Part shown: positions 3,780 to 58,314 of the stretch, piece after piece
How the letters are laid out: each line of letters opens with the position of its first letter
Numbering within the stretch: position 1 is the stretch's first letter
From: Lutjanus erythropterus
Taxonomy: Eukaryota; Chordata; Actinopteri; Lutjaniformes; Lutjanidae
NCBI GenBank assembly: GCA_020091685.1
Contig: CM034598.1
Coordinates: forward strand, 22,817,326-22,881,325
Reading direction: 5' to 3'
Length of the DNA stretch: 64,000 bases
Program-made: the position numbers and the translations under genes
Notes under the pieces: generated by a model
What the model was told of the DNA's origin: nothing
Databases searched by the model: none
Seen by the model: only the letters and a program-made list of their open reading frames with translations

Positions 3780-4400
3780 TAAATGTTTAAAAAGATTAGG
3801 TGAAGTAATGAAGTAAATAGTTCAACAGATAGCTAATGTAATGGATAAATTGTTGAATTAGCTAAAATGTAACCCAATGGATAAAAGGTTGAAGATAGCT
3901 AAAGTAACTGATAAATGGTTGAAGATAACTAAAGTGATGGATAAAGGGTTGAAGATAGCTAAAGTGATGGATAAATGGTTGAAGATAACTAAAGTGATGG
4001 ATAAATGGTTGAAGATAACTAAAGTGATGGATAAATGGTTGAAATAATAGCCAAAAGAAATTGATAAATTATTGAAACATAAAATAATGGATAACTTGTT
4101 GAATTAGCTAAAAGTAATGCATAAATAGTTATAATTCATAGCAGAAAGTAAACAGTTGAAATAGCTAAAAGTGACAGATAAATGCTTAACATAGTTGAAA
4201 TAGCTCCAGCTAAAAATAATGGACATGTAGTTCCAATACCAGTCAAAATGTAATGGATAAATACTTGAAATAGTTAAAGGTAATGGGTAAATATTTGAAA
4301 TACCTAGCTAAAGGAAATGGACAAAGGGTTAAAAGAGGGTCAAAAGGTAACAATTGAAATAGCTATAACTAAAAGTAATGGATTAATAGTTGAAATGTTC
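3780..4400. repeat. 30-bp minisatellite
   Basis: Five near-identical 30-bp units at 3,901-4,050, each containing GATGGATAAATGGTTGAAGA or a close variant followed by TA(A/G)CT. Degenerate units built on ATGGATAAA...TTGAA...TAGCTAAAAGTAA extend on both sides. Confidence 0.9.
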
Positions 4401-22020: not shown

Positions 22021-22151
22021 GTATTTCATATAGATAAGTTTACAATAAATCCTTTGTCCTTTCTATATTTCATTTTGTATACTTTGGTGCAAATGTCTAT
22101 ACTGTAAGTTCTTGTGGTTTCAACCCATTATTTGTATGGCTATGTTTACAG

Positions 22152-22308
22152 ATGGCTGAAGAGGAGGAAACAAGGGAGGTGCTCTTTCCAGACTGGGAGG
22201 GTCCAGATAAAACTGGCCTGACCATTGAACGGACAAGTGAGGGAGAGATCTTTGTTAAGGAGGTGAGAGGAGAGTCACCTGCAGCACGGTCTGGAAGAGT
22301 GTATGAAG
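22152..22308 (+). CDS. ahnak: ahnak coding exon 1: start codon and first half of the PDZ domain
   Basis: Encodes residues 1-52 plus one base. The acceptor ...TTTACAG lies directly before the ATG, so the start codon is the first triplet of the exon. The donor is GAAG|GTACAA. The protein begins MAEEEETREVLFPDW and continues into GLTIERTSEGEIFVKEV and SPAAR, which follow the AHNAK N-terminus closely (acidic start, LT-I strand, V-EV, SPAAR loop). This is the start of a PDZ-like fold used in AHNAK for self-association and partner binding. If the candidate leader exon at 21961-22020 is joined on, the start codon gains an A at -3 and G at +4, a good initiation context. Reading past the donor meets a stop soon after, which confirms the splice. 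Confidence 0.95.
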
Positions 22309-25300
22309 GTACAAAATTTGTTTTTTTCTCAAATCGTCAACTATGAAGTAAGATTTGTCTCACCTATATGATAACTAATCTTCAGTAATCTTAACAGACT
22401 TTTTTACTGCTGTCTAATTCATAGGTGACCAGATTGTAGGCGCTACTGTCTACTTTGATAACATGAGCTCAGAAGAAACAGCTGAGCTATTGAAGACATT
22501 GAACCGCCACAAGGTTGGACTGAAACTACAAAACAAAGGAGACAAATCTCCTTACAGCTCGCCCTTGAGCACGCCATGTCGTTCTCCAATGGGCACCCTG
22601 ACATGGGAAGGGAAGCCCCGGTTCGGAGGTTCCAGCCCAGACATCATCCTTGTAAGTTCTTTTGTTTTTAATTATATGATCACTGATTTGTCTCTGAGGA
22701 AGCTACTGAGCAAAATACATGACATAATAATATTTCCATGTTGTATGCCTTCCTGCCTTTTTTCTATCAATAGAGTGGAGATGATGAGGACTATAAGAGA
22801 ATATACACAAAAAAGATCAAACCAAGGCTGAAGTCTGAAGACCTTGCAGAGGGAGTGGATGTTCGCACAGAACGGCATAGCAGCACAAGCAGTGATGGCA
22901 GCACAATAACTACCATCACTCGTCGCATCACTACCTACACTGTGGATATGCCAAGTGGCATAAGTGAGCAACTTGAACTTTCAAGCCCAGAGTTCAAGGG
23001 GCTAAGGCATGAATCTGGAGATGGCTCTGCTCATATCAGAATCTCACATGGCAGCCCTTCAGGTAAAGTGGGAGGAGAAGAGGGAGTTTTTGAGTCAAGC
23101 AATGTCTCTTACACTGTGCCACAAGGTCTCAGATTAAAAGGGCCCAATGTTGAGATCTCAAGAGGGAGTGGGGAGCAAGGAGATGGAAACATTGAGGTGT
23201 CAGGCACAAGCATGACAATAAGTGACAGCACAAACACTGGTAGTAGGCATATTACAATAGGAAGGTTGGGAGGTGCAGAAGTAATGTCAGCTGATGAGAA
23301 TGGAGGGTCAATTAGTCTGTCTTCATCAGGAAGTACCATCAGTCACGGTGGTTCCAGAGTTATTGATACTAGCAGGATAGGAGGATCAGGAATAACAGTA
23401 GGCAATGTTTCCTCAGGATATTCCTCAGCACCAGGCAAGATTTCAGTGGGAGGTATGGATATCAACCTTAAAGGTTCAAAGATGAAAGGTGAGGCTGATA
23501 TCAACCTGCCAAGCACAAAGGGAGAAATAAAAGCATCTGGAATAGACACTGCAGTTCCAGGTTATGACACAGAGGGCAATATGAGTGGGATAAAAAAGTC
23601 AGCCATCAAGATGCCTGTGATTGGAATGAAAGGAATCAAAAAAGAGGGAACTAGTGTTGAAGTTGAACTCAGTGGTGATGTAGATATGTCAGTGCCTGTG
23701 ACGCAGCAAGAGGTGCAAAAACCAGAAGCAGGGTCAGTTGTCAACATTAGGCTTCCAGAAGCTGCCACCGACTTAAAAGCACCTGAAATCAACTCTAGAA
23801 TTCAAACTAACATACCAAAGGTTGATGGAAAATACAAAATGGAGGTGTCTAATGTTAAAATGCCATCCCTAACAGGACCAGATACAGATGTAAATCTGAA
23901 GGGTTCTAAGATAGAGGGAAATCTCGATGTAACAGTCCCAACGACTGAGGGAAAAATGAAGGCACCCCAAGTAGACATTAAAGGTCCAGCTATAAAAATT
24001 GAGGGGAAGGAAGGAGATTTCAAAATGCCACAGATAACGACACCATCATTTGGGGCCAAGGGAGCAAAAGTTGATGCAAAAGGTCCTGAGGTTGGACTTG
24101 ATGTTGGAGGCTCTGATGTAAAAATTGAAGGACTGAAATTCAAGATGCCATCCATAACGGGACCCACAATGCCAGAATGTGATATCAGTGTGAAAGGAAG
24201 CAAGGTAAAAGGAGATATGGATGTGACAGTTCCAAAGATTGAGGGATACATAACAAAACCTGAAGTTGACATCAAAGGACCAGAAATTGACACTGAAAGG
24301 CATAAAGGTGGAATTGACATGCCTAAAATCAAAATGCCACCAATTGGCATCAAAGGTCCTAAGATGGATGCCACAGATGTTGATATAAAACTCACCAAAC
24401 CTGAAATTGATGTCAAGGCACCTGGGGTTGATGTTAAAACATCCACAGTTAATGTTGAAAGACCAGACGTAGACATAAAAGCTCCCAAAGTGGATATTGG
24501 CATTAAGGGAACAGAAGGTGGATTCAACCAGCCAAAATCTACAATGACATCGATTGGCCTGAAAGGACCAAAACTTGAAAGTGATGTGGCTATATCTGCA
24601 CCAAAGATAAAAGGAGACATAACAGCACCTGAAATTGACATCAAAGGTCCACAAGTTGATATTAAAGGGAGAAACGGTGGTGTTGAAATTCAAAAAATCA
24701 AAATGCCATCATCTGGTCTAAATGTCAAGGGTCCAGATGTGGACCTCAAGCTCCGCAAAAGTGAAATTAATGTAAAAACACCTGAATTTGATGTTAAAGC
24801 TCCAGTGATAGATGTTGAAGGCCCTGATGCAAAACTCAAAGGAACGGAAATTAAAATACCATCCATAAAAGGACCAAAGGTGCCAGAGGTGGATGTCAAA
24901 CTTGGAGGTCCAAGAGTTGAAGGAGAAGTAGATGTATCAGTGCCAAGGGTTGAAGGACACATAAAAGGTGCTGACATCGGAAAAAGTGGATTTAAAATGC
25001 CCAAAGTAAATATTTCAGGATTTGGAATTAAAGGTCCAAAAGTGGAAGGTCCAGAAGTTGATGCTGGCCACCCAAAGGCTGATATAAATGTGAAAGCTCC
25101 TGAAGTAGACATCAAAGGCCTAGATGCTGACATTGAGAGTAGTGGTAACATCAAAATGCCATCAGTTCCAAAAGGCCGCATTGATGTGAAAGCACCTGGT
25201 TTTGACATTAACGCTACAGAGATTGGCATTGAAGGACCAGAGGCAAAAGTCAAAGGACCCAGTATCAAGATACCAACCATAAAAGGACCAAAGATACCAG

Positions 25301-28300
25301 ATCTTGACGTCAAACTAAAAGGTCCTAAAGTCGAGGGAGATGTTGATGTTTCACTTCCAAAGACTGAAGGGGATATAAAAGTTCCAGATGTGGATATTGA
25401 AGGACCACATGTTGACAAAGGAGGATTTAAAATACCGAAATTGAAAACACCATCGTTTGGATTCAAAAGTCCAGATGTGGATATAAACCTTCCCAAAGCA
25501 AATATTGATGTGAAAGCACCTAATGTTGACATTAAAGCACCAGATGTGGACATTGAAAGTCCAAGTGGTAAAATCAAGGGACCGAAATTCAATGTGAATT
25601 TGAGAGGTCCTAAAGTCAAAGGCGACCTGGATGTGTCAGCTCCAAAGATTGAAGGGGAAATAAAAGCACCTGAAGTTGACATCAAACGTCCACAGGTTGA
25701 CAAAATGCCATCATTTGGCTTCAAAGGTCCAAAAGTGGAAGGGCCAGATGTTGACATTGACCTTCCCAAAGCAAACGTTGACGTGAAAGCACCTGATGTT
25801 GACATTAAAGGGCCAGAGGTTGACATTGAAGGACCAGATGCAAAACTCAAAGGACCCAAATTTAAGGTGCCATCCATATCAGGACCCAAAGTTCCAGCTT
25901 GGGATATTAGTCTGAAAGGGCCCAAAGTAAAGGGAGATGTGTCAGTTCCAAAGATTGAGGGAGACATAAAAGGTCCTGAGGTGGATATTGAAGGATTAGA
26001 TGTTGACATTGAGGGACACAAAGGATTTAAAATGCCGAAGTTCAAAATGCCAACCTTTGGAATAAAAGGTCCAAATGTTGAAGGGCCAGAAGTTGATGTC
26101 AGCCTCCCGAAAGCTGATGTTGATATTAAAGCCCCTGAACTGGATATCAAAGGACCAGATGTAGACATTGAGAGTGCCAGTGGTAAAATCAAAGGACCGA
26201 AAATCAGCATGCCAACCATTTCAGGACCAACACTTTCCATGCCAGATGTGGATTTCAAACTCAAAGGTCCCGAAGTCAAAGGTGACCTGGATGTGTCAGC
26301 TCCAAAGATTGAAGGGGATATAAAAGCACCTGATGTTGACATCAAAGGTCCACAGGTTGACATGGAAAGTGCAAAAGGTGGATTTGAAATGCCTAAAATC
26401 AAAATGCCATCATTTGGCTTCAAAGGTCCAAAAGTGGAAGGGCCAGATGTTGACATTAACCTTCCCAAAGCTAACATTGATGTGAAAGTACCTGATGTTG
26501 ACATTAAAGGACCAGAGGTTGACATTGAAGGACTGGATACAAAAATCAAATCACCTAAGGTCAAGATGCCAAGCATAAAAGGACCAAAGATGCCAGATAT
26601 TGATGCCAAGCTAAAAGGTCCTAAAGTTGAGGGAGATGTGGATGTTTCACTTACAAAGATTGAAGGAGATATAAAAGGTCCTGAGGTGGATGTTGAAGGA
26701 CCAGATATCAACATTGAGGGTGGCAAAGGTTTTAAAATGCCAAAAATAAAAATGCCCAAATTTGGCTTGAAAGGTGCAAAGGTGGAAGGTCCAGATGTTG
26801 ATATAAACCTCCCCAAAGCTAACATTGATGTGAAGGCACCTGACGTTGATATTAAACCTCCAGAGATTGACATTGAAGGACCAGATGCAAAAATCAAAGG
26901 ACCCGAGATCAACATACCAAGCATAAAAGGACCAAAGATACCAGATTTTGATGTCAAACTAAAAGGTCCTAAAGTTGGGGGAGATTTGGATGTTTCAATT
27001 CCAAAGATTGAAGGAGATATAAAAAGTCCTGAGATGGATATTGAAGGACCAGATGTTAACGTTGAGGGTGTAAAAGGAGGCTTCAAAATGCCAAAAATGA
27101 AAATGCCTAAATTTGGTTTCAAAGGTCCAAAAGTAGAAGGCCCGGATGTTGATGTAACCCTTCCCAAAGCTAACATTGATGTGAAAGCACCTGATGTTGA
27201 CATCAAACCTCCAGAGATTGACATTGAAGGACCAGAGGCAAAAATCAAAGCACCTAAGGTCAAGATACCAAGCATAAAAGGACCAAAGGTGCCAGATCTT
27301 GATGTCAAACTGAAAGGTCCTAAAGTTGAGGGAGATGTGGATGTTTCACTTCCAAAGATTGAGGGAGATATAAAAAGTCCTGAGATGGACATTGAAGGAC
27401 CAGACATTAACATTGAGGGTGGCAAAGGTTTTAAAATGCCAAAAATAAAAATGCCCAAATTTAGCTTGAAAGGTCCAAAGGTGGAAGGTCCAGATGTTGA
27501 TATAACCCTTCCCAAAGCTAACATTGATGTTAAAGCACCTGATATGGACATTAAAGGACCAGAGGTTGACATTGAAGGACCGGAGGCAAAACTCAAAGGA
27601 CCAAAATTCAACATGCCCACAATTTCAGGACCAAAAATCTCCATGCCAGATGTGGATTTCAATCTGAAGGGCCCCAGAGTCAAAGGTGATGTGGATGTGT
27701 CAGTTCCAAAGATAGAGGGAGACATAAAAACACCTGAAGTTGACATCAAAGGTCCACAGTTTGATATTGAAGCGCCAACGGGTGGATTTGACATGCCTAA
27801 AATCAAAATGCCATCAATATCAGGACCAAAGCTGCCAGAATGGGATATTAATCTGAAAGGGTCCAAAGTAAAGGGAGATGTTGATGTGTCAGCTCCAAAG
27901 ATTGAGGGTGACATAAAAGGTCCCAAGGTTGACATTGAAGGACCAGATGTTGACACTGAAGGCCACAAAGGTGGATTCAAAATGCCGAAATTTAAAATGC
28001 CAACCTTTGGAATTAAAGGTCCAAATGTTGAGGGCCCAGAGGTTGATGTCAACCTCCCGAAAGCTGATATTGAAATTAAAGCCCCTGAACTGGATATCAA
28101 AGGACCAGATGTGGACATTGAAAGTCCAAGTGGGAAAATCAAAGGACCGAAATTCAACATGCCAACCATTTCAGGACCGAAACTCTCCATGCCAGATGTG
28201 GATTTCAATCTCAAAGGTCCCAGAGTTAAAGGTGACCTGGATGTGTCAGTTCCAAGGATTGAAGGAGAAATAAAGGCACCTGAAGTTGACATCAAAGGTC

Positions 28301-31300
28301 CACAGGTTGATATTGAACATCCAAAAGGTGGATTTGAAATGCCTAAAATCAAAATGCCATCATTTGGCTTCAAAGGTCCAAAAGTGGAAGGGCCAGATGT
28401 TGACATAAACCTTCCCAAAGCAAACGTTGATGTGAAAGCACCTGATGTTGACATTAAAGGACCACAGGTTGACATTGAAGGACCGGATGCAAAACTCAAA
28501 GGACCCAAATTCAGCATGCCAAAGATTTCTGGACCAAAACTCTCCATGCCAGATGTGGATTTCCATCTGAAAGGCCCCAGAGTCAAAGGTGATGTGGATA
28601 TGTCAGTTCCAAAGATAGAGGGTGACATAAAAACACCTGAAGTTGACATCAAAGGTCCACAGGTTGATATTGAAGGGCCAAAGGGTGAATTTGAAATGCC
28701 TAAAATCAAAATGCCATCAATATCAGGACCCAAGTTGCCAGATTGGGACATCAACCTGAAAGGGCCCAAAGTAAAAGGAGATGTTGATGTGTCAGTTCCA
28801 AAGATTGAGGGTGACATCAAAGGTCCCAAGGTTGACATTGAAGGACCAGATGTTGATACTGAAGGCAACAAAGGTGGATTCAAAATGCCGAAACTTAAAA
28901 TGCCGTCCTTTGGGATAAAAGGTCCAAACGTTGAAGGGCCAGAAGTTGATGTCAGCCTCCCGAAAGCTGATATTGATATTAAAGCCCCTGAACTGGATAT
29001 CAAAGGACCAGATGTAGACATTGAGGGTCCAAGTGGTAAGATCAAGGGACCCAAATTCAACATGCCCACCATTTCAGGGACCAAAACTCTCCATGCCAGA
29101 TGTGGATTTCAATCTCAAAGGTCCCAGAGTTAAAGGTGACCTGGATGTGTCAACTCCAAAGATTGAAGGGGATATAAAGCACCTGAAGTTGACATCAAAG
29201 GTCCAGAATTTGATGTCAAAGGACCAAAGGTGGACTTGAAATGCCTAAAATCAAAATGCCATCATTTGGCTTTAAAGGTCCTAAGGTAGAAGGTCCTGTG
29301 TTGACATAAACCTTCCCAAAGCAAACATTGATGTGAAGGCACCTGATGTTGACATTAAAGGACCAGAGGTTGACATTGAAGGACCAGATACAAAACTCAA
29401 AGGACCCAAGTTCAGCATGCCAAAATTTCTGGACCAAACTTTCAATGCCAGATGTGACTTTAATCTGAAAGGCCCCAGAGTCAAAGGTGATGTGGATGTG
29501 TCAGTTCCAAAGATTGAGGGTGAAATAAAAGTCCTAAGGTCGACATTGAAGGGCCAGATGTTGACATTGAAGGCCAAAAAGGAGGATTTAAAATGCCTAA
29601 ATTTAAAATGCCAACCTTTGGAATAAAGGTCCAAATGTTGAGGACCAGAAGTTGATGTCAGCCTCCCAAAGCTGATGTTGATATTAAAGCCCTGGATTGG
29701 ATATCAAAGGACCAGATGTGGACATTGAAAGTCCAAGTGGTAAAATCAAGGGACCGAAATTCAACATGCCAACAATTTCAGGGCCAAAACTGTCCATGCC
29801 AGATGTGGATTTCAATCTCAAAGGTCCCAACATCAAAGGAGACGTTGATGTGTCAGTTCCAAAGATAGAGGAGACATAAAAGCACCTGAAGTTGATATTG
29901 AAGGTCCAGACGTTAATTGAAGGGCCAAAGGGTGGATTTGAATTGCCAAAAATCAAAATGCCATCAATATCAGGACCAAAGCTGCCAGACTGGGACATTA
30001 ACCTGAAAGGACCCAGAGTAAAGGGAGATGTGGATGTGTCAGTTCCAAAGATTGAGGGTGACATAAAAGGTCCCAAGGTCGACATTGAAGGACCAGACGT
30101 TGACATTGAGGGCCAAAAGGGAGGATTCAAAATGCCTAAATTTAAACTGCCATCCTTTGGAATAAAAGGTCCAAATGTTGAAGGACCAGAAGTTGATGTC
30201 AGCCTCCAAAGCTGATATTGATATTAAAGCCCCTGAACTGGATATCAAAGGACCAGATGTAGACATTGAGGGTCCCAGTGGTAAGATCAAGGGACCCAAA
30301 TTCAACATGCCCACCATTTCAGGACCAAAACTCTCCATGCCAGATGTGGATTTTAATCTCAAAGGTCCCAGAGTTAAAGGTGACCTGGATGTGTCAACTC
30401 CAAAGATTGAAGGGGATATAAAAGCACCTGAAGTTGACATCAAAGGTCCAGAATTTGATATCAAAGGACCAAAAGGTGGACTTGAAATGCCTAAAATCAA
30501 AATGCCATCATTTGGCTTTAAAGGTCCTAAGGTAGAAGGTCGATGTTGACATTGACCTTCCCAAAGCAAACATTGATGTGAAGGCACCTGATGTTGACAT
30601 TAAAGGACCAGAGTTTGACATTGAAGGACCAGATGCAAAACTCAAAGGACCCAAAATCAGCATGCCAAAGATTTCTGGGCCGAAACTTTCCATGCCAGAT
30701 GTAGACTTCAACCTGACAGGTCCAAAACTCAAAGGTGATGTGGATGTGTCAGTTCAAAGATTGAAGGTGACATAAAAGGTCCAACGGTTGACATTGAAGG
30801 GCCAGATGTTGACATTGAAGGCCACAAAGCGGATTCAAAATGCGAAATTTAAAATGCCAACCTTTGGAATAAAAGGTCCAAATGTTGAGGGCCGGAAGTT
30901 GATGTAAATCTTCCGAAAGCGGATATTGATATTAAAGCCCTGGACTGGATATCAAAGGACCAGATGTAGACATTGAGAGTCCAAGTGGTAAAATCAAAGG
31001 ACCCAAATTCAACATGCCAACCATTTCAGGGCAAAACTGTCCATGCCAGATGTGGATTTCAATCTAAAAGGTCCCAGAGTTAAAGGTGACCTGGATGTGT
31101 CATCCAAAGATTGAAGGGATTTAAAAGCACCCGATTGACATCAAAGGTCCACAGGTTGATATCAAAGGACCAAAAGGTGGACTTGAAATGCCTAAACTCA
31201 AAATGCCATCATTTGGCTTCAAAGGTCCTAAGGTAGAAGGTCCCGATGTTGACATAAACCTTCCCAAAGCAAACATTGATGTGAAAGCACCTGATGTTGA

Positions 31301-34300
31301 CATTAAAGGACCAGAGGTTGACATTGAAGGACCAGATGCAAAACTCAAAGGACCCAAATTCAGCATGCCAAAGATTTCTGGACCAAACTCTCCATGCCAG
31401 ATGTAGACTTTAATCTGAAAGGCCCCAGAGTCAAAGGGTGATGTGGATGTGTCAGTTCCAAAGATAGAGGAGACATAAAAGCACCTGAATTTGACATCAA
31501 AGGTCCACAGGTTAATTTTGAAGGTCCAAAGGAGGATTTGAAATACCTAAAATCAAAATGCCAACATTTGATATTAAAGGTCCAAAAGTGGAGGGTCCAG
31601 ATGCGGACATAAACCTTCCCAAAGCTAATATTGATGTTAAAGCTCCAGACATTGACATTAAAGTTCCTGATGTTGATATTGAAGGCCCAGACGCAAAAGT
31701 CAAAGGCACAATTCAAGTTGCCATCAATATCAGTACCAAAGTTGCCAGATTTTGATATTGATCTGAAAGGACCCAAGATAAAGGATGATGTCAGTTCCAA
31801 AGATTGAAGGAGACATAAAAACACCAAAATATCTGGACCAAAAATATCATTGCCAGATGTTGACATCAATCTTAAGGGACCCAACTTGAAAGGTGATTTG
31901 AAAGGACGTTCAACTGCCAAAAGCTGAACTTGAGGGACCAGATGTCACACTTGATGTACCTGAAATTGGCACAAAAACAAAATTCAAAATGCCAAAGTTT
32001 GGATTCAAGGCTCCAAAGATAAAGGCTCCAGAAGCTGATGTGAAGATGGTGAAAGGGGATGTCAGTATCAAAGGAAGACTGGTAGCTCTGAAGGTCTTGA
32101 TCTTGACCTGGGATTGACTGGTCCAAAGCTAAAGGATCTAAATTCAAGTTACCAAAATTTGGTTTCAAAGGCACAAAAGTTGAAATGCCAGAAGTCGATG
32201 TTAATCTTCCCAAAGCTGGCATTGAAATCAAAAGTCAGATGTTGACATTGAAGGACCAGATGTTAAAATTGAAAAAACTGACAAAATTAAAGGACCGACT
32301 TCAAAATGCCAACTATCTCAGGTCCAAAACTTTCCATGCCAGATGTGGATTTCAATCTGAAGGGTCCAACAGTCAAAGGAGATATGGATGTGTCAGCTCA
32401 AAGATTGAAGGGGATATAAAGCACCTGAAGTTGACATCAAAGGTCCAGAATTTGATATCAAAGGACCAAAAGGTGGACTTGAAATGCCTAAAATCAAAAT
32501 GCCATCATTTGGATTCAAAGGTCCTAAGGTAGAAGGTCCCGATGTTGACATAAACCTTCCCAAAGCAGAAATTGATGTGAAGGCACCTGATGTTGACATT
32601 AAAGGACCAGATGTTGATATTGAAGGACCAGATGCAAAACTCAAAGGACGAAATTCAGCATGCCAAAACTTTCTGGGCCAAAACTTTCTATGCCAGATGT
32701 GGATTTCAATCTGAAAGGTCCCAACATTAAAGGAGATGTTGATGTGTCAGTCCCAAAGATAGAGGAGACATAAAAGTACCTGAAGTTGACATTGAAGGTC
32801 CAGAGATTGATATTGAAGGGCCAAAGGGTGGATTTGAAATGCCTAAAATCAAAATGCCATCAATATCAGGACCAAAGCTGCCAGAATGGGATATTAATCT
32901 GAAAGGGCCCAGAGTAAAGGGAGATGTGGATGTGTCAGTTCCAAAGATTGAGGGAGACTTAAAAGGCCCTAAGGTTGACATTGAGGACCAGATGTTGACA
33001 TTGAAAGCCACAAAGGAGGATTTAAAATGCCGAAATTTAAAATTCCGTCCTTTGAATGAAAGGTCCAAACATTGAAGGGCCAGAAGTTGATGTCAACCTC
33101 CGAAAGCTGATGTTGACATTAAAGCCCCAGAAATGGATGTCAAAGGACCAGATCTGGACATTGAGAGTCCTAGTGGTAAGATCAAGGGACCCAAATTCAG
33201 CATGCCAAGATTTCTGGACCAAAACTCTCCATGCCAGATGTAGACTTTAATCTGAAAGGTCCCAGAGTCAAAGGTGATGTGGATATGTCAGTTCCAAAGA
33301 TAGAGGTGACATAAAAACACCTGAAGTTGACATCAAAGGTCCAAAGGTTGATATTGAAGGGCCAAAGGGTGAATTTGAAATGCCTAAAATCAAAATGCCA
33401 TCAATATCAGGACCCAAGTTTCAGATTGGGACATCAACCTGAAAGGGCCCAGAGTAAAGGAGATGTTGATGTGTCAGTTCCAAAGATTGAGGTGACATAA
33501 AAGGTCCCAAGGTTGACATTGAAGGACCAGATGTTGACATTGAAGGCCAAAAAGGAGGATTCAAAATGCCCAAATTTAAAATGCCGTCCTTTGGAATAAA
33601 AGGTCCAAATGTTGAGGGAGCAGAAGTTGATGTCAGCCTCCGAAAGCTGATGTTGATATTAAATCACCTGGACTGGATATCAAAGGACCAGATGTGGACA
33701 TTGAGAGTCCTAGTGGTAAAATCAAGGGACCCAAATTCAAGATGCCAACTATCACAGGACCAAATATTTCCATGCCAGACATTGATTTCAATCTCAAAGG
33801 TCCTAGACTCAAAGGAGATGTCGATGTGTCTGCTCCAAAGATAGAGGAGACATACAAACACCTGATGTTGACATCAAAGGTCCAGATGTTGATATTGAAT
33901 TGCCAAAAGGTGGATTTGAAATGCCGAAAATCAAAATGCCATCATTTGGCTTTAAAGGTCCTAAGGTAGAAGGTCCCGATGTTGACATAAACCTTCCCAA
34001 AGCAAACATTGATGTGAAGGCACCTGATGTTGACATTAAAGGACCAGATATTGACATTGAAGCACCAGATGCAAAACTCAAAGGGCCCAAATTCAGCATG
34101 CCAAAGATTTCTGGGCCGAAACTTTCAATGCCAGATGTGGATTTCCATCTGAAAGGTCCAAACCTCAAAGGAGATGTTAATGTGTCAGTTCCAAAGATAG
34201 AGGAGACATAGAAACACCTGAAGTTGATATCGAGCCCAGAGGTTGACATTGAAGGGCCAAAGGGTGGATTTGAATTGCAAAAATCAAAATGCCATCAATA

Positions 34301-37300
34301 TCAGGACCAAAGCTGCCAGACTGGGACATTAACCTGAAAGGGCCCAGAGTAAAGGGAGATGTGGATGTGTCAGCTCCAAAGATTGAGGGAGATATAAAGG
34401 TCCCAAGGTGACATTGAAGGACCAGATGTTGACATTGAAGGCCACAAAGGAGGATTCAAAATGCCCAAATTTAAAATGCCATCCTTTGGAATGAAAGGTC
34501 CACATGTTGAGGCCAGAAGTTGATGTCAACCTCCAAGCTGATATTGATATTAAATCACCTGGACTGGATATCAAAGGACCAGATGTGGACATTGAGAGTC
34601 CTAGTGGTAAGATCAAGGGACCCAAATTCAAGATGCCAACTATTAAGGGACCAAATATTTCCATGCCAGACATTGATTTCAATCTCAAAGGTCATAGACT
34701 CAAAGGAGATATCGATGTGTCTGCTCCAAAGATAGAGGGAGACATAAAAACACCTGAAGCTGATATTCAAGGTCCAGATGTTGATATTGAAGGGCCAAAG
34801 GTGGATTTGAAATGCCTAAAATCAAAATGCCATCAATATCAGGACCAAAGCTGCCAGACTGGGACATTAACCTGAAAGGCCCAGAATGAAGGGAGATGTG
34901 GATGTGTCTGTCCAAAAGATCGAAGGAGACATAAAGGTCCCAAGGTCGACATTGAAGGACCAGATGTTGACATTGAAGGCCACAAAGGATTCAAAATGCC
35001 GAAATTTAAAATGCCAACCTTTGGAATAAAAGGTCCAAATGTTGAAGGGCCAGAAGTTGATGTCAACCTCCCAAAAGCTGATATTGACATTAAAGGCCCT
35101 GAACTGGATATCAAAGGACCAGATGTGGACATTGAGAGTCCTAGTGGTAAGATCAAGGGACCGAAATTCAAGATGCCAACTATCACAGGACCAAATATTT
35201 CCATGCCAGACATTGATTTCCATCTGAAAAGTCCCAAACTCAAAGGAGATGTGGATGTATCTGCTCCAAAGATAGAGAGACATAAAAACACCTGAAGTTG
35301 ACATCAAAGGTCCACAGGTTGATATTGAAGCACCAACGGGTGGATTTGACATGCCTAAAATCAAAATGCCATCAATATCAGGACCAAAGCTGCCAGAATG
35401 GGATATTAATCTGAAAGGGCCCAGAGTAAAGGGAGATGTTGATGTGTCAGTTCCAAAGATTGAGGTGACATAAAAGGTCCCAAGGTTGACATTGAAGGAC
35501 CAGATGTTGACATTGAAGGCCACAGAGGAGGATTTAAAATGCCCAAATTTAAAATGCCATCCTTTGGAATGAAAGGTCCACATGTTGAAGGGCCAGAAGT
35601 CGATGTCAGCCTCCCGAAAGCTGATATTGATATTAAATCCTGGATTGGATATCAAAGGACCAGATGTGGATATTGAGAGTCCTAGTGGTAAGATCAAGGG
35701 ACCCAAATTCAAGATGCCAACTATCACAGGACCAAATATTTCCATGCCAGACATTGATTTCAATCTCAAAGGTCCTAGACTCAAAGGAGATGTCGATGTG
35801 TCTGCTCCAAAGATAGAGGGAGACATACAAACACCTGATGTTGACATCAAAGGTCCAGATGTTGATATTGAATTGCCAAAAGGTGGATTTGAAATGCCGA
35901 AAATCAAAATGCCATCATTTGGCTTCAAAGGTCCTAAGGTAGAAGGTCGATGTTGACATAAACCTTCCCAAAGCAAACATTGATGTGAAGGCACCTGATG
36001 TTGACATTAAAGGACCAGATATTGACATTGAAGCACCAGATGCAAAACTCAGAGGGCCCAAATTCAGCATGCCAAAGATTTCTGGGCAAAACTTTCAATG
36101 CCAGATGGATTTCCATCTGAAAGGTCCAAACCTCAAAGGAGATGTTAATGTGTCAGTTCCAAAGATAGAGGAGACATAGAAACACCTGAAGTTGATATCG
36201 AAGGCCCAGAGGTTGACATTGAAGGGCCAAAGGGTGGATTTGAATTGCCAAAAATCAAAATGCCATCAATATCAGGACCAAAGCTGCCAGACTGGGACAT
36301 TAACCTGAAAGGCCCCAGAGTAAAGGGAGATGTGGATGTGTCAGCTCCAAAGATTGAGGAGATATAAAAGGTCCCAAGGTCGACATTGAAGGACCAGATG
36401 TTGACATTGAAGGCCACAAAGGAGGATTCAAAATGCCCAAATTTAAAATGCCATCCTTTGGAATGAAAGGTCCACATGTTGAGGGGCCAGAAGTTGATGT
36501 CAACCTCCCAAGCTGATATTGATATTAAATCACCTGGACTGGATATCAAAGGACCAGATGTGGACATTGAGAGTCCTAGTGGTAAGATCAAGGGACCCAA
36601 ATTCAAGATGCCAACTATTAAGGGACCAAATATTTCCATGCCAGACATTGATTTCAATCTCAAAGGTCATAGACTCAAAGGAGATATCGATGTGTCTGCT
36701 CCAAAGATAGAGGGAGACATAAAAACACCTGAAGCTGATATTCAAGGTCCAGATGTTGATATTGAAGGGCCAAAGGGTGGATTTGAAATGCCTAAAATCA
36801 AAATGCCATCAATATCAGGACCAAAGCTGCCAGACTGGGACATTAACCTGAAAGGCCCCAGAGTAAAGGGAGATGTGGATGTGTGGCTCCAAAGATTGAG
36901 GGAGATATAAAGGTCCCAAGGTCGACATTGAAGGACCAGATGTTGACATTGAAGGAAACAAAGGAGGATTTAAAATGCGAAATTTAAAATGCCAACCTTC
37001 GAATGAAAGGTCCACATGTTGAAGGGCCAGAAGTTGATGTCAACCTCCAAAGCTGATGTTGATATTAAATCACCTGGACTGGATATCAAAGGACCAGATG
37101 TGGACATTGAGAGTCCTAGTGGTAAAATCAAGGGACCGAAATTCAAGATGCCAACTATCACAGGTCCAAATATTTCCATGCCAGACATTGATTTCAATCT
37201 GAAAGGTCCAAAAGTCAAAGGAGATGTGGATGTGTCAGTTCCAAAGATAGAGAGACATAAAAACACCTGATGTTGATATTCAAGGTCCAGATGTTAACAT

Positions 37301-40300
37301 TGAAGGGCCAACGGGTGGATTTGAAATGCCTAAAATCAAAATGCCATCAATATCAGGACCAAAGCTGCCAGAATGGGATATTAATCTGAAAGGGCCCAGA
37401 GTAAAGGGAGATGTTGATGTGTCAGTTCCAAAGATTGAGGTGACATAAAAGGTCCCAAGGTTGACATTGAAGGACCAGATGTTGACATTGAAGGCCACAG
37501 AGGAGGATTTAAAATGCCCAAATTTAAAATGCCATCCTTTGGAATAAAAGGTCCACATGTTGAAGGGCCAGAAGTCGATGTCAACCTCAAGCTGATATTG
37601 ATATTAAATCCCTGGATTGGATATCAAAGGACCAGATGTGGACATTGAGAGTCCAAGTGGTAAGATCAAGGGACCCAAATTCAAGATGCCAACTATTAAG
37701 GGACCAAATATTTCCATGCCCGATGTGGATTTTAATCTCAAGGTCCCAGAGTTAAAGGTGACCTGGATGTGTCAACTCCAAAGATTGAAGGGATATAAAA
37801 GCACCTGAAGTTGACATCAAAGGTCCAGAATTTGATATCAAAGGACCAAGAGGTGGACTTGAAATGCCAAAATCAAAATGCCATCATTTGGATTCAAAGG
37901 TCCGAAGAAGGTCGATGTTGACATAAACCTTCCCAAAGCAAACATTGATGTGAAGGCACCTGATGTTGACATTAAAGGACCAGATATTGACATTGAAGCA
38001 CCAGATGCAAAACTCAAAGGCCCAAATTCAGCATGCCAAAGATTTCTGGGCCGAAACTTTCAATGCCAGATGTGGATTTCCATCTGAAAGGTCCAAACCT
38101 CAAAGGAGATGTTAATGTGTCAGTCCCAAAGGTAGAGGAGACATAAAAACACCTGAAGTTGATATCGAAGGCCCAGATGTTGACATTGAAGGGCCAAAGG
38201 GTGGCTTTGAATTGCCTAAAATCAAAATGCCATCAATATCAGGACCAAAGCTGCCAGACTGGGACATTAACCTGAAAGGGCCCAGAGTAAAGGGAGATGT
38301 GGATGTGTCAGCTCAAAGATTGAGGGAGATATAAAAGGTCCCAAGTCGACATTGAAGGACCAGATGTTGACATTGAAGGAAACAAAGGAGGATTTAAAAT
38401 GCCCAAATTTAAATTGCCATCCTTTGGAATAAAAGGTCCAAATGTTGAAGGGCCAGAAGTTGATGTCAACATTCCGAAAGCTGATATTGACATTAAAGCC
38501 CCTGAAATGGATGTCAGAGGACCAGATGTAGACATTGAGAGTCCTAGTGGTAAGATCAAGGGACCGAAATTCAAGATGCCAACCATTAAGGGACCAAACA
38601 TTTCCATGCCCGATATTGATTTCCATCTGAAAAGTCCCAAAGTCAAAGGAGATGTGGATGTGTCAGTTCCAAAGATAGAGGGAGACACAAAAACACCTGA
38701 AGTTGACATCATAGGTCCAGATGTTGATATTGAAGGGCAAAAAGGTGGATTTGAAATGCCAAAAATCAAAATGCCATCATTTGGCTTCAAAGGTCCAAAG
38801 GTAGAGGGCCCTGATATTGACATACATGCTCCAAAAGGCAGTATTGATGTCAAAGCACCTGGCCTTGACATTAATGCACCAGAGATTGACATTGAAGCGC
38901 CAGATGCAAAAATCAAAGGACCCAAGGTCAAGATACCAACCATAAAAGGACCAAAGATACCAGATTTTGATGTCAAACTAAAAGGTCCAAAAGTCGAGGG
39001 AGATGCAGATGTTTCATTTCCAAAGGTTGAAGGAGACATTAAAGGTCCTGACATAGACATTGGAGGACCAGATTTTGACAATGAGGGTGGCAAAGGAGGG
39101 TTTAAAATGCCAAAAATGAAAATGCCTAAATTTGGCTTCAAAGGTCAAAAGTTGGAAGGTCCAGATCTTGATATAAACCTTCCCAAAGGAAGCATTGATG
39201 TTAAAGCACCTGATCTTGACATTAAAGGACCAGAGGTTGACATTGAAGGACCAGATGCAAAACTGAAAGGCCCAAAATTCAACATGCCGAAAATTTCTGG
39301 ACCCAAAATTTCCATGCCAGATGTGGATTTTGATCTGAGAGGTCCCAAACTCAAAGGTGATGTGGATGTGTCAGTTCCAAAGATAGAGGGAGACATAAAA
39401 ACACCTGAAGTTAACATTGAAGGTCCACAGGTTGACTTTGAAGGGCCAAAGGGTGGATTTGAAATGCCTAAAATCAAAATGCCATCATTTGGCCTCAAAG
39501 GTCCTAAGGTGGAAGGTCCTGATGTTGACATAAACCTTCCCAAAGCAAACATTGATGTGAAGGCACCTGATATTGAAATTAAAGGACCAGAGGTTGACAT
39601 TGAAGGACCGGATGCAAAACTTAAAGGACCCAAATTCAGCATGCCAAAGATTTCTGGACCGGATTGGGATATCAGCATGAAAGGGCCCAAAGTCAAGGGA
39701 GATGTGGATGTGTCAGTCCCAAAGATTGAGGGAGACATAAAAGGTCCCAAGGTTCACATCGAAGGACCAGACATTGACACTGAGGGCCACAAAGGAGGAT
39801 TTAAAATGCCTAAATTTAAAATGCCATCCTTTGGAATGAAAGGTCCAAATGTTGAGGGGCCAGAAGTTGATGTTAGTCTCCCAAAAGCTGATATTGACAT
39901 CAAAGCCCCTGAAATGGATGTTAAAGGACCAGAGTTGGATATCGAGAGCCCTAGTGGTAAGATCAAGGGACCGAAATTTAAGATGCCAACTATCACAGGA
40001 CCAAACATTTCCATGCCTGATATGGATTTCCATCTGAAAGGTCCCAAAGTCAAAGGAGATGTGGATGTGTCAGTTCCTAAGATAAAGGGAGACATGGAAA
40101 CACCTGAAGTTGACATCAAAGGTCCAGGTGTTGATATTGAAGGGCCAAAGACTGAATTTGAAATGCCAAAAATTAAAATGCCAACATTTGGCTTCAAAGG
40201 TCCAAAGGTGGAGGGCCCTGATGTTGACATACATGCTCCAAAAGGCAGTATTGATGTCAAGGCACCTGGCCTTGACATTAACGCTCCAGAGATTGACATT

Positions 40301-42361
40301 GAAGGACCAGATGCAAAAATCAAAGGACCCAAGTTCAAGATACCAAACATAAAAGGACCAAAGATGCCAGATTTTGACATGAAACTAAAAGGTCCAAACG
40401 TCGAGGGAGATGTGGATATTTCACTTCCAAAGGTTGAAGGAGACATTGGAGGACCAGAGGTTGACATTGAGGGACCAGATGCAAAATTGAAAGGACCCAA
40501 ATTCAGCATGCCAAAGATTTCTGGACCCAAAATTTCCATGCCAGATATGGATTTCCATCTGAAAGGTCCCAAACTCAAAGGAGATGTGGATATGTCAGTT
40601 CCTAAGATAAAGGGAGACATAGAAACCCCTGAAGTTGACATCAAAGGTCCACAGGTTGATATTGAAGTGCCAAAGGGTGGATTTGACATGCCTAAAATCA
40701 AAATGCCTTCGTTTGGCTTTGAGGGTCCAAAGGTGGAGGGTCCAGACATTGACCTAAACCTTCCCAAATCTAACATAGATTTTAAAGCACCTGATATCAA
40801 CATCAAGGGGCCTAAAATCAAAGGAAAGATGGATGCATCTGTGCCCAAACTGGAAGGAGATATCAAAGGTCCAAATGCTAACATTGCAGCACCCACCATC
40901 TCCATGGAAGGTGTGTCTATTGATCCTGTGAAGACAGGTGTTACCTTTCCCAGATTTAAAGGTCCTAAATTTGGTATGAAATCACCTGAAGTGGAGGGGC
41001 CTGAATCCACACTTAAGACAGAGGTTAATCTCCCAGATACTGAAGTAAGTCTTGATGCCCCTGATATTGATATACATGTAAAGGGGAAAAAGGGCAAATT
41101 TAAACTTCCAAAAGTCAAAGGAAAGGCAAAGAAACCCGATGTTGCCATAGAAACACCATCAGTGAACTTGGATGTGGACACACCCAATATCCATGTTAAA
41201 GGAGGAAAGGCAAAGAAGCCTCTTTTTGGTAAGCTTCATTTTCCTGATGTGGAATTAGATATCAAATCACCAAAACTGAAAGGAGATGGGTCTTTCTCAG
41301 AGGGACTGAAGTCATCTGATGTTGATTTGCCATCGGCTAGATTGCACACCAGCGTTGACAGTCCAAATGTTAGTTTGGAAGGGCCAGATGTAAAATTAAA
41401 GACTCCTGATATCCAAATCCCAAAGGTGAACATATCTGCTCCTAATATTGATACAAATTTAAATAGACAAGGAGAGGCAACCATGTCTGCAGGGTTTAAA
41501 GGCCAAAAAATAAAGGTGGAAGGTGGTGGAGATATTGACGCTAGTGTGTCAGGGGGCAGTGCAAGTGGTGGCCTTAATTTCCCAGAGGGTACTGTAACAT
41601 TTCCCAAAATGAAGGTGCCAAAATTTGGTATTGCTTTGCCTCAGTTGGAAGGGCAGCAAAGGGGAGGTAATGTTGAATCAGAACTTGCAGCGAGTGGAGG
41701 CATAAACATTCAGTCTCCATCTGTCAGTTGTCAAGTCAGTTCACAAGATATTGAGGTTCCCAGCCCAGAACTGAGGCACAGTGAAGGCAAAGTAAAAGTA
41801 AAGATGCCAAAATTGTTTGGAAAATCAAAAGCAAAGGGAAGTAGTGAAGGTGACCTTCGGGGACCAGAGGTAGAATTGAGTGCAAGTGGAAAAGGTGGTA
41901 AGGTCTCTAAAGACCTAAATGTACATACTGGGAAATTAGAATTAGAGGGTGAGCCTGGACTCAGTGTGTCAACTAAAGGCAAGTCAGCCTCACTGGATCT
42001 ATTTAAGAAATCAAGGCATCGGTCTTCTTCTCTGAGTGATGAGGGCGGCCTTGCAGTTAGTTCTCCTTCAGCTCACTTAGAATCTGAGGGTGGTGACATT
42101 TCATTAGACCTAGGAGGAAGCAAAGTCAAAGGAAAGAAAGGCAAGTTGAAGTTTGGTACCTTCGGAGGTTTTGGTTCAAAGTCAAAGGGCTCATATGAAG
42201 TGACACTTGGTGAGGACAGTGAAGCAGGAGTGGAGGGAAGTGCAGGTGTTTCTCTGCCTTCTAAAAAGTCAAGATTGTCTTCATCTTCTAGCAGTGACAG
42301 TGGTTCAAGAGGTGGTTTCAGGTTCCCAAGACTTGAGCTGTCTGTTTCACCTAAAAAATGA
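22152..42361 (+). CDS. ahnak: ahnak (desmoyokin), whole coding locus in three coding exons
   Basis: Giant scaffold protein, known in mammals to act at the plasma membrane, in calcium-channel regulation, and with annexin A2/S100A10 and actin. The join is 22152-22308, 22425-22651 and 22774-42361, with GT/AG boundaries at every junction and phases that match. The order is that of AHNAK: an N-terminal PDZ region, a unique Ser/Gly-rich segment, thousands of residues of repeats built from K-G-P-x-V-(D/E)-(I/V)-D and M-P-K-(I/F)-K-M-P, then a basic, Ser-rich C-terminus. Exon layout (small exons then one huge exon) also matches mammalian AHNAK. Allowing for missing bases, the product would be roughly 6,650-6,700 residues, against 5,890 in human. 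The frame is broken many times between about 29,077 and 38,346, so this sequence does not translate through as given. AHNAK2 and periaxin share repeat style, but the C-terminal motifs point to AHNAK. Confidence 0.95.
22425..22651 (+). CDS. ahnak: ahnak coding exon 2: second half of the PDZ domain and linker
   Basis: 227 nt, completing the split glycine codon of exon 1 and ending on a codon boundary (residues 53-128). Acceptor TTCATAG|GTGACC, donor CTT|GTAAGT. It encodes EGDQIVGATVYFDNMSSEE and then HKVGLKL, the second half of the AHNAK PDZ domain (D-Q-I-V-G-A-x-x-Y-F-D-N is nearly invariant in the family). A Ser/Pro-rich linker follows (SPYSSPLSTPCRSPMG), ending in SSPDIIL just before the giant exon. 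The linker between the PDZ region and SGDD seems somewhat longer than in human AHNAK, from memory of the human protein. Alternative use of exons around here yields a small PDZ-only AHNAK in mammals; nothing in this sequence decides whether fish do the same. Confidence 0.94.
22774..29076 (+). CDS. ahnak: ahnak giant exon, intact 5' part: unique segment and first repeats
   Basis: Acceptor TATCAATAG|AGTGGAG. The open frame begins SGDDEDYKRIYTKKIKPRLK, a hallmark AHNAK sequence, then TRRITTYTVD, also conserved. Residues about 129-350 form a unique Ser/Gly-rich segment (SSPEFKG is family-typical). From about 23,450 onward the central repeats begin, with recurring VDI-KGP, MPKIKMPSFGFKGPKVEGP and LKGPKVKGDVDVSVPKIEGD motifs. 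Early repeats (23.4-25.4 kb) are diverged and irregular in length; from about 25.6 kb they become regular, about 119-120 codons each, with near-identical copies by 27.6 kb. No stop or frameshift occurs in 2,101 codons. The reverse strand is also open for long stretches (for example 24,690-29,084), a by-product of the biased repeat codons and not a gene. Confidence 0.95.
25600..40870 (+). repeat. ahnak: AHNAK central tandem repeat array with nested higher-order units
   Basis: The basic unit is about 119-120 codons (about 357 bp). Units differ in type: one with FGFKGPKVEGPDVDINLPKA, one with FGIKGPNVEGPEVDVSLPKA, and a short one (about 63 codons) starting MPSISGPKLP-(D/E)-WDI. The start of the short type recurs near 27,811; 28,714; 29,961; 32,857; 33,398; 34,292; 34,830; 35,369; 36,263; 36,806; 37,344 and 38,230, giving spacings of about 540 and 900 bp. 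The series 894-538-539 occurs once in full and then repeats (894-543-538), so the top-level period is about 1.97 kb. Confidence 0.85.
29077..38346 (+). CDS. ahnak: ahnak giant exon, central repeats with about 80 frame-breaking indels
   Basis: The same repeat protein is recognisable throughout in all three + frames, but the frame changes about every 115 bp. The first break is an extra G at 29,077-29,079 (GGG where sister copies have GG); nearly all others are losses of one or two bases in runs of A, C or G, such as GATATAAAG for GATATAAAAG near 29,177 or CTCCGAAAG for CTCCCGAAAG near 33,100. Only one other extra base was noticed (near 31,438). Substitutions to stop codons are not what breaks it. 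Correct reading resumes at about 38,347 and continues to the natural stop. I read this as a real coding repeat array recorded with poor base accuracy; true decay of the gene is possible but fits poorly with the intact downstream 1,336 codons. Confidence 0.8.
38347..42361 (+). CDS. ahnak: ahnak giant exon, intact 3' part: last repeats and C-terminal domain
   Basis: Open for 1,336 codons to TGA at 42,359-42,361. Central repeats continue to about 40,870. The unique C-terminal domain follows, with basic clusters KGKKGKFKLPKVKGKAKK (about 41.08 kb) and KKSRHRSSSLSDEGG (about 42.0 kb), then KGKKGKLKFGTFGGFGSKSK and KKSRLSSSSSSDSGS, all matching the AHNAK C-terminus in sequence and order. Mammalian AHNAK uses this region for nuclear localisation signals and for binding actin, the calcium-channel beta subunit and annexin A2/S100A10. 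The protein ends LELSVSPKK, close to the human ending. This conserved tail is the strongest evidence for AHNAK rather than AHNAK2 or periaxin, and for a functional gene. Confidence 0.95.
41588..41647 (+). other. ahnak: annexin A2/S100A10-binding motif in the AHNAK C-terminus
   Basis: Encodes GTVTFPKMKVPKFGIALPQL. In human AHNAK a peptide at the corresponding place in the C-terminal domain, with core VTFPKMK-(I)-PKF, is the established binding site for the annexin A2-S100A10 heterotetramer. The core VTFPKMKxPKF is kept here, with the last residues diverged. The assignment is by similarity; the fish peptide has not been tested as far as I can tell from sequence. Confidence 0.75.
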
Positions 42362-57678: not shown

Positions 57679-57750
<72 letters not shown>

Positions 57751-57885
57751 GATACTCACAGAGATACTCACACAGGGACACACAGAACAGCAGCAGAGGG
57801 GACTGGGCAGGGCTTGGGAGATTTTCTCATTTTATTTCCAGTGTATACATGTCTATCTCTCAGTGTGTGTGTGTGTGTGTGTGTG
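57663..57885. repeat. compound CA / CT / CA / GT microsatellites
   Basis: CA run at about 57,663-57,679, an almost pure CT run to about 57,714, a second CA run to about 57,746, then a GT run at 57,863-57,885. They lie just upstream of the klhl4 leader and are likely length-variable. Confidence 0.95.
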
Positions 57886-58314
57886 CACAGGAGAGGCAGA
57901 GGGAGAGAAAGCGAAACAGGGGAGGCGAAGGGGAGGGAGTGTGGATCATGCATGTGCATTAACTCAGCTCCAGCGGCACAGCAGCAGCAGCAAACAGAAA
58001 CAGCAGCAGCAGCAGCAGCAGCAGCACAGGAGGGAAGGAGGGAGAGAAAGACAGAGAGGGAGAGTTGGAGGGAGGGTAGTTGTCTCAGGCACAGGAACAA
58101 AAGCTGCAGAGGACTGCTTTCCATCTCCACTAAAAGAACAACGGAGGAGTAATAGAAGGAGGAGGGGGTGGTCATGATAGTAGTGAAACAATAACGGAAG
58201 AGAAGAGGCACATTGTAGTCAGTGAGGACTGAAACCAAGGCTCTTCTCTCCTCTGCTCTCCATGTTTTTGGGGACTCAACGTACCATCGCCTTCGTCTCC
58301 AAACCCAGAGGAGG
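57880..58314 (+). promoter_or_regulatory. klhl4 5' leader/promoter-proximal region
   Basis: Purine-rich, GC-richer sequence leading into the klhl4 start codon, containing a CAG run and GGAGG-rich stretches. The transcription start is not obvious and no TATA box is clear. An out-of-frame ATG at 58,262 and others upstream could act as small upstream reading frames. Assigned by position only. Confidence 0.4.
58001..58024. repeat. CAG trinucleotide repeat in klhl4 leader
   Basis: Eight uninterrupted CAG units, preceded by a shorter CAG run at about 57,979-57,992. It is upstream of the start codon, so untranslated if the leader assignment is right. Confidence 0.9.

Follow-up and report, generated by a model that had tools for sequence, protein, structure and literature searches.

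The gene architecture closest to the locus described here is presumably that of AHNAK (desmoyokin), in which short N-terminal exons precede a single giant exon, built of GPKVEGDVDVSLPKIEGDIKGPEVDIEGP-type repeats, that ends in a unique C-terminus. We analysed a window of 64,000 nucleotides (contig CM034598.1 of assembly GCA_020091685.1, forward-strand positions 22,817,326 to 22,881,325; all coordinates below count from the first base of this stretch), which holds a gene that we take to be AHNAK-like and probably of a fish. The gene shares the above plan and departs from it in that the frame of its giant exon is interrupted midway, by an interruption that we judge to be artefactual.

Precedents for such an interruption come from long-read assembly. 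One report places continuous long-read (CLR) assemblies before polishing at Q30–35, names short, frameshifting insertions and deletions (indels) as their commonest errors, and shows frameshifts in TLK1 at a locus left unpolished (PMC8081667); in a second, repeats retain errors after short-read polishing (PMC8812927). A third, on a fish assembly in which PBJelly closed gaps before polishing, cautions that duplicated regions may keep residual indels (PMC9291852). The interrupted stretch resembles an unpolished long-read consensus (PacBio CLR or nanopore) in its mostly one-base losses, its bias toward short runs and its coding signal, kept despite the broken frame (PMC8081667, PMC8812927); it differs in being limited to a single 9.27-kb piece, bordered left and right by clean parts of its own exon, and in lying near Q20 rather than at the Q30–35 reported for CLR contigs before polishing (PMC8081667). 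With long-read gap filling of the PBJelly type, as applied to the fish assembly (PMC9291852), it would share the character of a bounded piece placed where short reads cannot span. A limited literature search, covering mainly titles and abstract openings, found no published description of an artefact block of this sort.

The giant exon lies on the + strand, starts near 22774 and runs to a stop at 42361; it translates into a long succession of GPKVEGDVDVSLPKIEGDIKGPEVDIEGP-type repeats followed by a non-repetitive end. Two open frames (22774–29133 and 38324–42361, both +) bound its broken middle. The clean left part (22774..29076, +) comprises 2,101 codons of AHNAK-like repeats, and the clean right part (38347..42361, +) holds repeats, the non-repetitive C-terminus and the terminal stop. 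Over the whole of these open parts there is no stop in 2,098 left and 1,335 right codons, which bears out the original observation of clean codons on either side. Between them lies a block (29077..38346, +) with 86 frame changes, the first at 29077 and the last at 38343, which we read as a probable low-accuracy gap fill.

Frame changes were counted with a mosaic decoder, which compares successive codons of the block with those of the clean flanks and allows jumps between repeat units as well as one- and two-base changes of frame. The 86 events comprise 68 one-base losses, 12 two-base losses and 6 one-base gains (losses to gains, 80:6), and their total ranged from 85 to 91 across three penalties. 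Control decoding of the flanks, with the local copy excluded, covered 24974–29068 on the left (4,095 b) and 38354–40753 on the right (2,400 b), the outer flank parts lying outside the decoder's range and being judged by openness only; not one frame change was found in these 6,495 b at penalties 6.5 and 8, and one in all at the loosest penalty of 5. With the left or the right flank as sole reference the decoder again returned 86 events each time, matching 86 of the 86 sites of the main run within 12 b, and the kinds of event shifted slightly (4 one-base gains in each run, and also 1 two-base gain with the right flank only). Random one-base deletions, planted in flank copies at spacings above 15 b, were recovered within 15 b in 314 of 314 cases, with no extra calls and with a call of another kind in seven of the 314. 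Two other counting schemes were dropped: a frame model resting on codon usage only (48 to 61 block events over four penalties; 3 false flank events at penalties 6 and 7, and 1 at 8 and 10), and gap voting from BLAST self-alignments, which was noisy and made non-triplet calls even in the clean flanks.

Events are spaced 109 b apart on average (9.28 per kb), and their positions within the block are compatible with uniformity (Kolmogorov–Smirnov p = 0.28, chi-square p = 0.36). At that density, chance would leave the left 6,303 b free of events with p = 4e-26 and the right 4,012 b with p = 7e-17. The sharp-edged block of about 80 indels, one every ~115 bp, that had been proposed from inspection of the letters is in good agreement with these counts.

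A simple alignment placed 76 of the 86 events, including 59 of the 68 one-base losses, the other 10 being set aside as multiple or complex. The localised one-base losses favour homopolymers: 45 of 59 fall in runs of at least two (57.6% expected) and 33 in runs of at least three (27.7% expected; p = 6e-6), and the lost base is G or C in 39 (42% expected; p = 3e-4). One sequence context recurs, GAGGG(A/T)GACAT, which is shortened at 13 of 17 sites in the block and at none of seven clean sites (Fisher p = 0.001); a decoded event lies at all 13 shortened sites and at none of the four complete ones, a pattern that looks like systematic base-calling error. When the 11 losses in GAGGG context are excluded, the bias toward runs of at least three persists (22 of 48, p = 0.009) and that toward G or C is weaker (28 of 48, p = 0.03). 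The spectrum is that of an artefact in that losses dominate (80 of 86) and homopolymer runs are favoured; the original description of losses from short homopolymers holds to this extent and overreaches for the 14 of 59 one-base losses at single bases and for the two-base losses, only one of 12 of which is a homopolymer pair by local context. It had also counted only two gains, where we decode four to six: the figure of six is an upper one, since four of the gains adjoin a reference jump, and for one of the four, located at a shortened GAGGG site, a two-base loss is the better interpretation.

The coding content of the block is preserved beneath its broken frame. Its 3,048 decoded codons contain no stop, and a decoder without a stop penalty again gave 86 events and no stops, with neither events nor stops in both controls. 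Mismatches to the nearest clean unit, counted without codons that lie within three of an event or jump, amount to 0.063/0.039/0.154 at codon positions 1/2/3 in the block (2,227 codons), compared with 0.071/0.039/0.136 in the left flank (1,190 codons) and 0.073/0.053/0.155 in the right (737 codons). About 2.05% of random substitutions in block codons would create a stop, so that a few hundred neutral substitutions would have yielded several. Within the block, three higher-order repeat copies of ~1.97 kb each (32357–34333, 34334–36304 and 36305–38279, all +) differ from one another mostly at third and least at second codon positions (e.g. 0.075/0.038/0.182 in the decoded frame), a comparison for which 20, 33 and 26 frame-conflict columns were set aside; this third-position bias argues that the block evolved as coding sequence since the duplications, and that the indels came later. 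The nonsense changes and position-independent substitutions that would accompany indels in a pseudogene or under neutral decay were not found, and the indels lie far above both in-frame nonsense and neutral-type substitutions, as expected of an artefact.

These observations bear directly on the possibility of real decay, in which the middle of the exon would have turned non-coding (for instance, spliced out as a new intron) and accumulated indels. Such a history could call on a donor-like GTAAGA near 29036, on AG dinucleotides from 38345 onward that would preserve the frame, and on indels that are shared between some of the higher-order copies. Within the stretches inspected for splice sites (29031–29090 and 38331–38400), however, the sequence upstream of the seven AG sites examined is only 20–45% pyrimidine, and the absence of stops from 3,048 codons makes more than ~150 neutral substitutions unlikely at the 2.05% rate, whereas 86 neutral indels are normally accompanied by several hundred. 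The codon-position pattern is, in addition, typical of selected coding sequence. A new intron was rejected on the strength of the missing stops, the coding-type substitutions and the pyrimidine-poor AG sites, and decay in general appears very improbable, the lack of stops together with the flank-like distribution of substitutions practically excluding it. The argument first made against decay, from abrupt edges and a spared exon end, is upheld by the sharp edges and strengthened by the zero stops and coding-type substitutions. It might instead be supposed that real indels are made good when the gene is expressed, through programmed ribosomal frameshifting or RNA editing, for which the recurrent shortening of GAGGG(A/T)GACAT (13 of 17) supplies the regularity expected of a site-specific process; but the same motif is intact at seven of seven clean sites of the same exon, the remaining frame changes occupy many contexts, and the events start and end sharply. 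We know of no vertebrate precedent for such recoding, and consider it hardly credible. We give no greater credence to indels that are both real and very young, whether as a burst of mostly one-base deletions that was confined to the expanded repeat array of this one exon, recurred at a fixed GAGGG context and came too recently for substitutions to build up, or as changes tolerated via recoding.

Recurring 81-mers cover 37.9% of the block; their coverage is 6.3% in the left flank, taken from 25.0 kb, and 0% in the right flank, taken to 40.7 kb. The longest substitution-free match (gaps allowed) reaches 549 b in the block, compared with 110 b on the left and 99 b on the right. The 1.97-kb copies differ by 4.9 to 12.2% of substitutions, with substitution-free stretches of up to 549 b; two of them are only 4.9% apart, with 269 b identical. 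They represent an expansion of the repeat array, and their number in the block may be misassembled and is not to be trusted. Reads of 100–150 b could not span the longest substitution-free stretches. One substitution-free stretch ends at 38345, two bases past the last event, a coincidence that is suggestive only, others continuing beyond. A second route to an artefact would have the whole region derive from long reads, with short-read polishing failing in the block through multi-mapping to near-identical copies. The concentration of long substitution-free repeats in the block accords with this, as do the errors that polishers leave in repeats (PMC8812927), the remark, on a fish assembly, that duplicated regions could retain more indel errors when multimapping reads are left out (PMC9291852), and the example of an unpolished, frameshifted gene locus, although the cause given there is competition for reads between haplotypes (PMC8081667). 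The distribution of errors speaks otherwise. Events per kb, by length of best match, are 10.0 below 40 b, 10.6 at 40–60 b, 12.6 at 60–100 b, 10.3 at 100–200 b and 5.7 above 200 b; block bases with a best match under 40 b thus carry 22 events in 2,193 b, as error-dense as the rest, and those under 60 b carry 40 in 3,892 b, against none in 5,104 flank bases of the same kind. Flank bases in the first four match classes number 3,476, 1,628, 1,216 and 110, all without an event (including the 1,216 b with matches of 60 to 100 b), and none falls in the class above 200 b. Because events are as dense in unique sub-stretches as in most repeats, whereas an effect of mappability by itself should have spared the unique ones, we prefer a single inserted piece of low accuracy, and regard failed polishing as rather unlikely.

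We therefore favour gap filling, and propose the following course. The underlying gene would be an intact AHNAK-like gene with an open giant exon, of which a 9.27-kb block was probably built from low-accuracy long reads at about one indel per 109 b (~0.9%, near Q20 from indels alone) and most likely put in as one piece, closing a gap at near-identical 2-kb repeats. Its consensus would have dropped individual bases, for the most part G or C and within runs of at least three, and would have done so repeatedly at one context. The chemistry would be of nanopore or PacBio CLR type, the error rate and the context-bound losses hinting at a nanopore-type or low-depth consensus. The sharp edges and the even density observed whatever the local uniqueness are what a fill in one piece would leave, the exception being the 5.67 per kb in matches above 200 b. 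Of the original reading of a low-accuracy gap fill in a hard-to-polish repeat, the missing stops, codon pattern, edges, loss and context biases and concentrated repeats support the substance; "filled as one piece" appears to be its better half, whereas "hard to polish" fails to explain where the errors lie.

Several observations weigh against this interpretation. The longest repeats carry fewer events per base (16 in 2,820 b with matches above 200 b), which may reflect an imperfection of the measure, since an event can itself cut short the match around it. The block's rate, near Q20, is worse than the Q30–35 reported for unpolished CLR contigs (PMC8081667). The three pairs of higher-order copies also have 4, 6 and 5 frame changes at coinciding places, where ~1 per pair is expected, a result that inheritance could produce as well; three places are hit in all three copies, all of them with GAGGG context, while the other coincidences were counted without individual inspection. 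For the triple-hit GAGGG sites, a systematic error determined by the sequence seems to fit no worse than inheritance does, and the lack of decay settles the choice in favour of the former. With these points taken into account, we hold with high confidence, on the evidence of the bases themselves, that the block is an artefact of sequencing or assembly, a confidence that gap filling and failed polishing share.

Upstream of the giant exon, a probable first coding exon lies at 22152..22310 (+, end approximate; translation of the open reading frame at 22038–22346, MAEEEETREVLFPDWEG...RVYEG), which we take to be the PDZ-like start of the AHNAK-like protein; the fragment covering it had no Pfam match. 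A probable second coding exon follows at 22424..22660 (+, end approximate; open reading frame 22418–22831, GDQIVGATVYFDNMSSEET...), likewise with no Pfam match. Pfam searches with the two open parts of the giant exon returned DUF945 (42.8 and 23.3 bits, cutoff 26.8), PF21930 "xxxxx_C" (33 and 41.2 bits, cutoff 27) and DUF211 (22.5 bits, cutoff 22.1), and no AHNAK model among the matches. Four of these five rows exceed their cutoffs and no single stretch does so by itself, for which reason we judged all three families spurious, an effect of the repeats. A PDB search with the right part only matched no chain, and when viral_contigs was searched for relatives with the C-terminal piece, 30 pattern matches came up and none was confirmed, in collections described as being without animal genomes. 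Opposite the giant exon, the − strand has long open frames at 24690–29108 (1,472 aa) and 39754–41235 (493 aa), most likely by-products of the repeated codon make-up rather than genes.

Elsewhere in the window, a 30-b minisatellite of 5.7 copies at 3876–4130 is nested in a 90-b period, and (CT)n, (CA)n and (CAG)n simple repeats at 57679–58026 adjoin a G+C-richer stretch at 58–60 kb. This stretch is perhaps the start of a neighbouring gene; the ten short open reading frames of the window that were searched had no Pfam match, the two tested here included.

The indels themselves almost certainly hold no biology, the feature being in all likelihood an assembly artefact. That artefact and decay can be argued apart without reads is owed to what the locus itself provides: its own clean flanks as reference, the number of stops per indel, the codon-position pattern, and the density of events in unique as against repeated sequence. 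The block serves as a warning: an annotation pipeline would report a broken gene, divide it or introduce spurious introns, and comparative work on gene loss or repeat number would be led astray at this giant-exon gene.

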